From Gallionella sp. (GTDB lineage: Bacteria > Pseudomonadota > Gammaproteobacteria > Burkholderiales > Gallionellaceae): a DNA stretch of 41,875 nucleotides. How positions within the stretch are numbered: the stretch's first letter is position 1; each line of letters begins with the position of its first letter. The notes beneath the pieces were generated by a model that saw nothing but the letters and a program-made list of their open reading frames with translations, had not been told where the DNA came from and did not search any database. Below are positions 23,719 through 41,393 of the stretch, in pieces. The DNA lies in NCBI GenBank assembly GCA_030653355.1, contig JAURZN010000158.1, positions 1 to 41,875 on the forward strand, in the 5' to 3' direction. The position numbers and the translations under genes were made by a program.

Positions 23719-23744
23719 CCCCTCTCCCGCTTGCGGGAGAGGGG
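23719..23744. repeat. CCCCTCTCCCGC hairpin repeat before recG
   Basis: CCCCTCTCCCGC (23719-23730) and GCGGGAGAGGGG (23733-23744) form a near-perfect hairpin. A purine-rich run, GGAAGGGGAGAGGGGG, follows and reaches the recG start. A degenerate copy of the same element lies inside the UbiH-family gene at 40301-40324. Similar elements are common between genes in proteobacterial genomes. Confidence 0.75.
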
Positions 23745-38837: not shown

Positions 38838-39087
38838 ATTCAATTCCGTGCAGCAGCATTTTCTTGCGCAGGGTATTGCGATTGATGCCCAGCATGGCTG
38901 CGGCGCGCGACTGATTGCCGCCTACCTGCGACAACACCATCTCGACCAGCGGCTTTTCGACACAATTTATAACCATGTCGTACAAGCCGCTGCACGGTTC
39001 TTCACCGTCGAGATCGCAGAAGTATTCACTGAGTGAGAGTCGCACGTAACGTGCCATCTCGTTTTCATCTATCGCGCAATCGCTCAT
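38836..39087 (-). CDS. fis: Nucleoid protein Fis
   Basis: An 83-residue Fis-family protein. The C-terminal helix-turn-helix is clear (LVEMVLSQVGGNQSRAAAMLGINRNTLRKKMLLHGI), and the preceding helical dimer region contains LYDMVINCVEKPL. It is shorter than the 98-residue E. coli Fis because the N-terminal arm differs, as is usual in betaproteobacteria. Fis bends DNA and modulates rRNA/tRNA and other promoters. Its ATG overlaps the dusB stop by 4 bases (ATGA), the classic dusB-fis operon, so its expression depends on dusB transcription and translation. Confidence 0.94.
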   Translation of the reverse strand: MSDCAIDENEMARYVRLSLSEYFCDLDGEEPCSGLYDMVINCVEKPLVEMVLSQVGGNQSRAAAMLGINRNTLRKKMLLHGIE

Positions 39088-40106
39088 GCCGCCGCTTCCT
39101 CTCGCACCAGGTCATCAAGATAGCGCAACTGCACTCCACGCTGCGCTTGTTCTGCAAAAAATTCATTCACCGCCGCCAACTGTTCTTCGGGACTCTCCAG
39201 CCGGTTCATCTGATGACGAAAGTGCGCCGAACCGACCAGCCCCTTCGTATACCACGAGATATGTTTGCGCGCTACGCGCAGCCCGGTGTGTTCGCCATAA
39301 AATGCATACAATTCATTCACATGACCGAGCAAGACGCGGTGAATTTCATCCACCTCCGGCGCAGGCAAATGTTCCCCTGTTTTCAGGAAGTATTCGATTT
39401 CGCGGAACAGCCAGGGGCGTCCCTGCGCCGCGCGGCCTATCATCACCGCATCCGCGCCGGAATACTGCAACACATAACGGGCTTTTTCCGGTGTAGTGAT
39501 GTCGCCGTTGGCGATGATGGGAATGTTTACGGCGTCTTTCACGGCGGCGATCGTATCGTACTCGGCATCGCCGGTGTAGGCACAGGCGCGGGTGCGGCCA
39601 TGAATCGCCAGTGCCTGTATGCCGGACGCTTCCGCAATCTGCGCGATGCGAACCGCATTGCGATTGTGCGTGTCCCAACCTGTGCGTATCTTCAGCGTTA
39701 CCGGCGCATTCACCGCACCGACCACCGCCTCAAGCAGCGTTGCAACCAGTGGTTCATTTTGCAGCAAAGCCGAACCCGCCATCACGTTGCAGATTTTCTT
39801 TGCCGGACAGCCCATATTGATATCGATAATTTGCGCGCCGTTATCCACATTGTATTTCGCGGCTTCTGCCAGCATCTTCGGGTCTGCGCCGACGATTTGC
39901 ACCGAAATGGGGTCGACCTCTCCCTCATGATTGGCGCGGCGTTTGGTTTTTTCCGAGCCATACAGCAGCGAATTGGACGCAACCATTTCGCTCACCGCCA
40001 TGCCTGCCCCCATGCGTTTGCACAACATGCGGAAAGGCCGATCGGTTACTCCGGCCATAGGAGCAACGATGAGATTGTTTTTCAGTTGATAAGGGCCGAT
40101 GCGCAT
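39084..40106 (-). CDS. dusB: tRNA-dihydrouridine synthase DusB
   Basis: A 340-residue FMN enzyme that reduces specific uridines to dihydrouridine in tRNA. It begins MRIGPYQLKNNLIVAPMAGVTDRPFR, has the Dus signature DINMGCPAKKICNVMAGSALL with the catalytic cysteine, VTLKIRTGWD, ALAIHGRTRACAYTG, IPIIANGDITT and VMIGRAAQGRPWLF. The C-terminal helical tRNA-binding domain follows. It heads the dusB-fis-purH-purD-tsaC-hemF strand series. A 75-base gap separates it from the divergent UbiH-family gene and should hold both promoters. Confidence 0.96.
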   Translation of the reverse strand: MRIGPYQLKNNLIVAPMAGVTDRPFRMLCKRMGAGMAVSEMVASNSLLYGSEKTKRRANHEGEVDPISVQIVGADPKMLAEAAKYNVDNGAQIIDINMGCPAKKICNVMAGSALLQNEPLVATLLEAVVGAVNAPVTLKIRTGWDTHNRNAVRIAQIAEASGIQALAIHGRTRACAYTGDAEYDTIAAVKDAVNIPIIANGDITTPEKARYVLQYSGADAVMIGRAAQGRPWLFREIEYFLKTGEHLPAPEVDEIHRVLLGHVNELYAFYGEHTGLRVARKHISWYTKGLVGSAHFRHQMNRLESPEEQLAAVNEFFAEQAQRGVQLRYLDDLVREEAAA

Positions 40107-40181: not shown

Positions 40182-41393
40182 ATGAAAACCTCGATGCAAT
40201 ACGACGTTGTGATTATCGGCGGAGGTCTGGTGGGTGCCAGTCTGGCCGCCGCACTGAAAGACAGCGGGCTGACGCTGGCACTGGTGGAAGCCGGTCCAAA
40301 CCCTCTCCCGCCTGCGGGCGAGGGGGCAAACGAATCGCTGCGCGATGCTCTCCTTGACGACTGGGACAGCCGCATTTATGCGATCAGCCCCGGCAGCCGC
40401 CGCTTTCTCGAACAATCCGGTGCATGGGCAAAACTTGACCCTACACGCGTTGCGCCTGTGGAAGAAATGCGCGTGTTCGGCGACACCCTCTCAAAACTGG
40501 AGTTTTCCGCCTATCAGATGGGTGTATCAGAACTGGCCTGCATACTGGAAAATCGCGCGCTGCAACACGCGCTGTGGCAGGTGTTGCAGCATCAGGACAA
40601 TCTGGCATTTTTCCATCCAGCTCGCTGCAAGGCGCTGTCAATAGGTGAAGCATCCACCGAACTCACGTTGGAAGACGGCCAGACCTTGAGCGCAAGACTG
40701 ATCGTCGGCGCCGATGGGCGCAACTCCTGGGTGCGCAATCAGGCAGGCATCTCTGCCGCGCCGGTGGACTACCACCAACACGGCGTGGTTGCCAATTTCA
40801 ACTGCGAACAGCCGCATCGCGGCATCGCCCACCAGTGGTTCCAGGAGGATGGCATTCTTGCCCTGCTGCCGCTGCCCGGCCTGCGCGTCTCCATGGTGTG
40901 GTCGGTCAGTCCTGAGAAATCTGCCGCGTTGCTGGCACTGTCGCCTGAAGAACTCTGCTCGCAGGTCGCTGCCGCATCACACAACACGCTGGGTAATCTG
41001 CAGCTCATCACAGCGCCTGCCGCGTTTCCGCTACGCCTGCTCACCCTGCCGCAAATCAGCGCGCCGCGCGTGGCCTTGATAGGCGATGCCGCGCACAACA
41101 TGCACCCGCTGGCCGGACAAGGCGTGAACACCGGATTCCGCGATGCGCGCCAACTGGCGGAATTGCTGACGTATCGCGGCGGATGCAGCGATTGCGGCGA
41201 TGCGCAACTGCTGCGCCGCTATGACCGTAAACGCCGCGAAGATATTCACACCATGCAGGCCACCACCTATGGCCTGAAGCAACTGTTCTGCAACGACGAC
41301 CCGGTGTTGCGTACCCTGCGCAATCTCGGTCTGGATGCCACGAATCACATTGTCCCACTGAAAAAACGACTCATGCAACACGCCCTCAACTAA
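40182..41393 (+). CDS. UbiH/UbiF/COQ6-family FAD monooxygenase
   Basis: A 403-residue aromatic hydroxylase of the ubiquinone pathway family. The FAD motif is VVIIGGGLVGASLAAALK, followed by the NAD(P)H/FAD DG motif LIVGADGRNSWVRNQAGI and the GD motif ALIGDAAHNMHPLAGQGVNTGFRDA. Which ring position it hydroxylates (UbiH, UbiI or UbiF role) cannot be fixed from sequence. Between the second beta-strand (LALVEAG) and the family-typical WDSRIYAISPGSR lies the segment NPLPPAGEGANESL, encoded by an intergenic-type hairpin repeat. ATG at 40182 or 40197 may be the start. DsbC follows 13 bases later. Confidence 0.9.
   Translation: MKTSMQYDVVIIGGGLVGASLAAALKDSGLTLALVEAGPNPLPPAGEGANESLRDALLDDWDSRIYAISPGSRRFLEQSGAWAKLDPTRVAPVEEMRVFGDTLSKLEFSAYQMGVSELACILENRALQHALWQVLQHQDNLAFFHPARCKALSIGEASTELTLEDGQTLSARLIVGADGRNSWVRNQAGISAAPVDYHQHGVVANFNCEQPHRGIAHQWFQEDGILALLPLPGLRVSMVWSVSPEKSAALLALSPEELCSQVAAASHNTLGNLQLITAPAAFPLRLLTLPQISAPRVALIGDAAHNMHPLAGQGVNTGFRDARQLAELLTYRGGCSDCGDAQLLRRYDRKRREDIHTMQATTYGLKQLFCNDDPVLRTLRNLGLDATNHIVPLKKRLMQHALN
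40301..40324. repeat. Hairpin repeat inside the UbiH-family coding sequence
   Basis: CCCTCTCCCGC (40301-40311) and GCGGGCGAGGG (40314-40324) form an inverted repeat with one mismatch. It is a degenerate copy of the element before recG (23719-23744). Read in frame it gives roughly PLPPAGEG, keeping the host gene open. Confidence 0.7.

Follow-up and report, generated by a model that had tools for sequence, protein, structure and literature searches.

The UbiH locus and its repeat copy

The window analyzed here is a stretch of 41,875 nucleotides from Gallionella sp., contig 10 of a 2.6-Mb genome that comprises 224 contigs and is 89% complete. The following features of the window are relevant to this study:

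39084..40106, minus strand: dusB, divergent neighbour, given for context (TIGR00737, 423 bits)
40182..41393, plus strand: gene of a UbiH/UbiF-family FAD-dependent hydroxylase, 403 aa (open reading frame, NF005788, AlphaFold model)
40296..40348, plus strand: repeat-derived insert consisting of hairpin and tail, in-frame reading (P)NPLPPAGEGANESLRD (genome matches; copies side by side; absent in G003 and G011)
40301..40311, plus strand: left arm of the palindrome, CCCTCTCCCGC (pattern search)
40314..40324, plus strand: right arm of the palindrome, GCGGGCGAGGG, with one internal mismatch to the left arm (pattern search)
40326..40345, plus strand: conserved tail, GCAAACGAATCGCTGCGCGA (copies side by side; genus survey)
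23719..23744, no strand assigned: tail-less copy of the palindrome directly before recG (perfect arms)

The 403-aa protein was matched over its full length above the curated cut-offs of NF005788 (UbiH/UbiF hydroxylase; 602 bits, cut-off 478, residues 5-403) and TIGR01988 (415 bits, cut-off 224.65, residues 8-402). Its AlphaFold model has a mean pLDDT of 90.2 and E. coli UbiI (4k22) as best fold match (Z 43.2, rmsd 1.8, 343 aligned). By full-length match and by fold, it is a hydroxylase of the UbiH/UbiF/VisC/COQ6 family.

The unit of the repeat family is a palindrome with arms of 11 bp, followed by the tail. With at most one mismatch, the left arm was detected five times in the window, where 0.70 matches were expected and none of 100 shuffles reached five. 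In longer copies, within and outside genes, both sides are extended and the ends are roughly inverted (TGAAACTCGC in L003, GCGAATTTCA in L005). A sequence-only reading of this DNA had placed an inverted repeat within the coding sequence of a UbiH-family enzyme and had called it nearly identical in type to one before recG. The first statement is borne out, as both arms lie inside 40182-41393; the second holds for the palindrome, which both copies have in common, but not for the tail (GCAAACGAATCGCT..), which the recG copy lacks. That the reading frame survives was also correct, since it is open throughout the insert. The proposed gain of about 14 residues has to be revised: the repeat-derived stretch encodes approximately 17-19 residues (PNPLPPAGEGANESLRDA), and compared with the near homologue of G003 (394 aa) the net gain is nine. 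When the homologues were aligned, the segment was absent in G003 and G011. The repeat-derived stretch seems to stand partly in place of native loop sequence, in a loop of UbiH that varies anyway.

In the model, the insert is located between the second Rossmann strand (residues 32-35) and the WDSR motif (residues 61-64), which is invariant in 37 aligned sequences. Residues 41-60, which form the insert loop, have a mean pLDDT of only 53. Given this position and the low-confidence segment, the insert is a loop within the FAD-binding domain; it had been described as lying next to this domain but is found inside it, after the second strand. The acid and the arginine neighbouring the insert presumably contact FAD, as in p-hydroxybenzoate hydroxylase. 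Because the conserved motifs are intact and the loop is modelled with low confidence, the insert probably has little effect on catalysis.

Copies of the repeat in the own genome and in the genus

When the own genome was searched with the window copy, 26 matches at E <= 1e-3 were obtained (40 of 44 candidates scored), which correspond to 25 distinct copies because one match is the reverse reading of the palindrome. These 25 were found with a coding copy as query and may favour its type; with another copy as query, at least two further own-genome matches (C42, C108) were detected. Over 50 nt, tail included, the window copy matches other full-length genomic copies at 84-94%, with E-values down to 1e-15.

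Seventeen of the 25 copies lie in frame within open reading frames, namely those of UbiH, ThiO, FadE, MutM, RnfC, HsdR (two), ABC-F, HsdM, GatB, CysS (two), PurL (two contigs), a MAD2-like methylase (L053), L046 and L049, where the names HsdR, HsdM and MAD2 denote best matches below curated cut-offs. The inserts of FadE and the second one of HsdR are situated just past the matched part of the family model. The other eight copies lie outside genes, several of them directly upstream of genes such as ftsW, thrB, apaG, murU and trkH. Present in many copies, intergenic ones included, the window repeat is a REP-like dispersed palindromic repeat. The claim that a repetitive element contributes protein sequence to UbiH is thereby upheld as far as sequence goes: the family is repeated in the own genome, and the insert is predicted to be translated in frame. 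In the two purL contigs (L050, L052) the repeat has the same position but differs in version, which may reflect strain mixing within the assembly.

Of the 37 genomes of the genus, 32 gave matches to a longer copy used as query, as did two of the 24 genomes of other families (G050 with 15, G052 with two); in these many-genome searches about 14 candidates per genome were scored, so that copy numbers are lower bounds. A 20-mer spanning the junction of palindrome and tail (40320-40339, one free base) occurred 110 times, in 32/61 genomes of the genus, and its reversed control did not occur in the 61 genomes. The window insert is one case of a genus-wide pattern.

Sites without the repeat in relatives

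Twelve repeat-bearing genes of the own genome were compared with two to six relatives each, which represent a part of the orthologue matches found. In-frame insertion in unrelated genes together with absence in relatives, as in Rickettsia palindromic elements (RPE), was observed in eight of the 12. The repeat was cleanly missing from at least one relative in seven of them (ThiO, FadE, MutM, ABC-F, L049, GatB and PurL; for ThiO, L049 and MutM this rests on protein alignments, the DNA alignments being partly misaligned), and in CysS the relative without repeat has a shorter, different loop. The ABC-F insert (72 nt, 24 residues) was absent in six of six relatives, and a target-site duplication was not seen at this clean empty site. 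In ThiO, the insert was present in G000 and G015 and absent in G011, G028, G001 and G010. In MutM, the version of the insert differs between G000/G015, G011 and G010, whereas G003 and G001 are without it. The FadE insert was found at the same base in G000, G011, G028 and G010 and was absent in G015 and G003. In RnfC, HsdM and the L046 gene a clean empty site was not obtained because the native loop differs, and in HsdR because neither of the two relatives found is free of the insert; the MAD2-like gene (L053) gave weak orthologue matches. Such differences between relatives suggest that the repeat has been mobile.

At the FadE sites without insert (L194 and L195 in G015 and G003, compared with L188, L173 and L183) the frame was either precisely restored or never interrupted.

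The same loop in UbiH homologues

A protein search of 61 genomes, largely metagenomic assemblies, gave a match in 52 and none in nine; in G008, G013 and G017 the match covers about the repeat segment only. The homologue set (n=52) consisted of the window, 50 of 80 loci (30 were left out) and L016. The repeat was present in this loop in nine of the 52 (window, L057, L059, L060, L063, L075, L097, L098 and L016), or in eight of 51 without L016, which had been included for carrying it. Outside the window's own lineage, its two nearest relatives are G003 (91% identical) and G011 (92%); both lack the insert. The sister genome G015 (L057) carries it in a version 12 nt longer than that of the window; the two versions differ between a pair of CCCTCTCC direct repeats.

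The spacing from the strand acid to WD amounts to 24-41 residues in the nine repeat-bearing sequences (24 in the window) versus a median of 14 and a range of 10-28 without repeat (42 of 43 sequences; L093 was not parsed). At the DNA level, all nine carriers match the element consensus (E 8e-19 to 9e-7), and the other 43 sequences match it no better than E 0.3. Among the carriers, L059 and L016 show just 74-76% identity to the consensus, and L098 is read in a different frame. A segment present with varied codons in most homologues would have spoken against a recent insertion; what was found is a segment in only nine of 52, scattered on the tree, matching repeat DNA in every case.

These data bear on the possibility that the segment is just a common loop of variable length whose likeness to the repeat arose by chance or through low-complexity drift. 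The native loop does vary in length, as the range in homologues without repeat demonstrates. However, the 50-nt matches to genomic copies, the 110 junction occurrences against none for the reversed control in 61 genomes, and the DNA matches in nine of nine carriers refute this explanation as far as sequence allows, and we assign it next to no probability.

On a quick tree calculated without the loop columns, the presence of the repeat requires seven changes, at least five of which are forced by starred branches; 17 of 49 inner branches are open, and the change count is blind to gain versus loss. With shuffled labels a mean of 8.4 changes was obtained, and 66 of 500 shuffles did as well as the real seven, therefore the trait is barely clustered.

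A single ancestral insertion into UbiH, followed by several losses through deletion or replacement by recombination, would also produce a patchy distribution. In its favour, the inserts of the window's wider clade have GANESLRDALLDD or similar in common, those of L059 and L016 resemble each other, the FadE distribution given above looks like loss or allele exchange, and the tree counts do not separate gain from loss. On the other hand, L063, L075, L097 and L098 are carriers elsewhere in the tree with differing flanks, L098 in another frame as well, and the shared GANESLRDA is found in FadE as well, so that it comes from the element. We therefore consider one ancestral insertion unlikely.

The insert might also be adaptive in UbiH beyond mere tolerance, for example by tuning cofactor access. 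The same loop has been hit repeatedly, and the equivalent region of p-hydroxybenzoate hydroxylase contacts NADPH and FAD; the titles of the fold matches include p-hydroxybenzoate hydroxylase mutants of residues 34, 38, 42 and 44. Against this stand the 43 of 52 homologues that do without the insert and the occurrence of the same peptide in unrelated enzymes, as tolerance predicts, which make an adaptive role improbable.

A second loop of the enzyme, after MRVFGD, contains a different in-frame palindromic insert in G011 and G010 (L012, L018). This insert is similar to the repeat CTTCGACAAGCTCAGGACAGG without being identical. Among 61 genomes, CTTCGACAAGCTCAGGACAGG was detected in 27, with 91 occurrences in all, and the window's own genome has none.

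Reading-frame bias of copies in coding sequences

The surroundings of all 110 exact junction copies were fetched and classified by the codon usage of both flanks, with the repeat and its edges excluded and the 26 open reading frames of the window as training set. Thirty-six copies were assigned to in-frame coding, 18 to different-frame and eight to same-frame-with-stop (one-strand coding flanks), nine had flanks on opposite strands and 39 were left unclassified. The 36 are a lower bound, because the classifier missed the UbiH copy of the window and its kin L234 and L290, probably as the left flank extends beyond the start of the gene. Clustering by flank similarity reduced the 36 copies to 27 sites, two of them in one hsdR gene.

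At 25 of the 27 sites the repeat is read in frame +0 (GEGANES), at two in +1 and at none in the other four frames (binomial p 9e-18 versus 1/6 and 3e-6 versus 1/2). The peptide encoded in the favoured frame is ..PNPLPxxGEGANESLR... Representatives of 20 of the 27 sites were scanned, and for 18 a known family was matched with an E-value of 1e-15 or lower; these are gene-level matches, which may leave the insert uncovered. MurG, TilS (N-terminal model), FPP synthase, Tgt, RsmB, GcvPA and PabB were above the curated cut-off; others, such as MoeA and Mfd, were below it, some being cut by the 1.6-kb stretch.

Among the 110 copies the core of the repeat is open in 105 (+0), 93 (+1), 107 (+2), 63 (-0), 83 (-1) and 79 (-2) cases, and the longer stretch from -55 to +34 in 90, 75, 57, 50, 66 and 26, respectively. 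A filter by stop codons as sole cause of the bias was rejected, since the core is open in +2 in 107 of 110 copies, yet no in-CDS site uses this frame. Over the longer stretch +0 is the frame most often open and +2 is open in just 57, therefore stops contribute. For the remainder of the bias, selection on the encoded peptide is indicated; spread among coding sites by in-frame conversion may be an alternative source.

The copies also bear on whether the insert is translated at all. Were it skipped by ribosome bypass or removed by RNA splicing, stops and frame would be irrelevant. The insert is indeed a hairpin within a gene, and harmless inserts that are spliced exist in other bacteria, as described for IStrons in the part of PMC4227781 used here. 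However, in-gene copies hold the frame and favour one, and the ratio of eight same-frame-with-stop to 18 different-frame copies is near the 1:2 that plain intergenic sites should give, without an excess of interrupted genes. This ratio speaks against an insert that is not translated, and we regard bypass or splicing as extremely improbable.

A repeat that lies in frame in UbiH, is missing from close relatives, recurs in many unrelated genes and strongly prefers one frame among its classified in-gene copies is, in our view, very probably a copy of a REP-like, non-autonomous palindromic element in a variable UbiH/UbiF loop, translated as a flexible hydrophilic loop and tolerated. In the proposed mechanism, a short palindromic repeat dispersed in the genomes of the genus would have moved into the UbiH loop as DNA. 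Insertion would be roughly random, and purifying selection on the protein would leave mainly those copies that keep the frame, are free of stops and lie in surface loops, read as PNPLPxxGEGANESLR.

A further step, doubtful but conceivable, would be that the selfish repeat is itself shaped at the protein level: it would keep one frame encoding a benign hydrophilic loop of proline and glycine and spread in this form through coding DNA, essential genes included, in addition to intergenic DNA. If so, the 25/27 single-frame bias would reflect the make-up of the element in addition to a host-gene filter.

Relation to known palindromic elements

Short palindromes in frame in many unrelated genes, each encoding an extra peptide, are known from the RPE, which are about 150 bp long according to the passages of PMC10969869 considered here. 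The Gallionella repeat corresponds to them, so far as described there, in these respects. It differs in sequence, length (about 50-95 nt) and bacterial group, and in repeatedly hitting one loop of one enzyme, as seen across species.

GTAG- and CGTC-tagged REPs have been located inside coding sequences of several species, Thauera included, with double insertions in one gene (Di Nocera 2013, PMC3733652). In the portion of this survey drawn on here, different REPs are also reported at about the same recB site in two Xanthomonas species, which is a partial precedent for a shared site, and most REPs lie between genes. The Gallionella palindromes resemble these intragenic REPs in their position inside coding sequences, but, unlike the mostly intergenic REPs as portrayed in that portion, 17 of 25 own-genome copies are intragenic. 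Neither tag is found next to the stem in the consensus of the 110 copies; GTAG is present on the reverse strand of some tails only (CTACGCGA), about 13 nt from the stem. Judged by its tags, the repeat falls outside the GTAG and CGTC super-families. A one-frame bias is not described for intragenic REPs in the same portion of PMC3733652.

In the literature searched, mostly outside subscription journals, an account of this repeat family or its frame bias was not found. The kind of element is thus already known from the RPE and intragenic REPs; new are the family, the genus-wide pattern, the one-frame bias and the repeated use of one loop. In-frame palindromic insertions can now be followed in an iron-oxidising genus for which many species have been sequenced, some with and some without a given insert. 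Comparing them amounts to a natural experiment: it can reveal which loops of a protein tolerate foreign sequence, and whether selection favours selfish DNA that does no harm when translated. For annotation, NPLPxxGEGANESLR segments in Gallionella proteins should be treated as repeat-derived and not as domains.

RAYT genes and further palindromic elements

As in REP/RAYT (TnpA-REP) systems, a RAYT gene was detected in the own genome (NF047646, 200 bits), one flank of which is missing because the gene lies at a contig end. Strong RAYTs (E < 1e-30) were commoner in repeat-rich genomes of the genus (19 of 26) than in its other genomes (two of 11; Fisher p 0.003, uncorrected for relatedness). Unlike in these systems, the hairpins near RAYT genes are mostly others: among 20 RAYT loci scanned, a part of the RAYT matches, 16 have other hairpins nearby and four have none. 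The present repeat was strongly matched near a RAYT at one locus (L142, belonging to another family, at a distance of 167 nt) and marginally at L138, more than 1 kb away. A RAYT is therefore a candidate and not a proven mover, and the own-genome RAYT and the 20 loci did not reveal the transposase that mobilises the repeat.

An unusually stable mRNA hairpin was likewise rejected for the insert (z -0.03), as 93 of 200 shuffles fold as well.

In several copies (L041, L042, L187 and other places) a second palindromic element, CTAGCCATTCGACTAAG-N-AAGTCGCTGGTTAT, is nested in the first. It was detected in 61 copies in nine of nine genomes searched. Its arms are constant, as set by the search pattern, and its inner stem varies yet stays complementary: an inner stem of at least 5 bp was present in 32 of 43 distinct copies versus a mean of 7.2 (maximum 14 in 500 re-deals) when the halves were re-dealt. 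Near a RAYT gene at L056 (approximately 1800-1994), an open reading frame, whose product is probably FadB/FadJ-like, reads TPQG-SYSPCAALPLASDGKGVRG-YQPRSTL and seems to contain another palindromic insert in frame.
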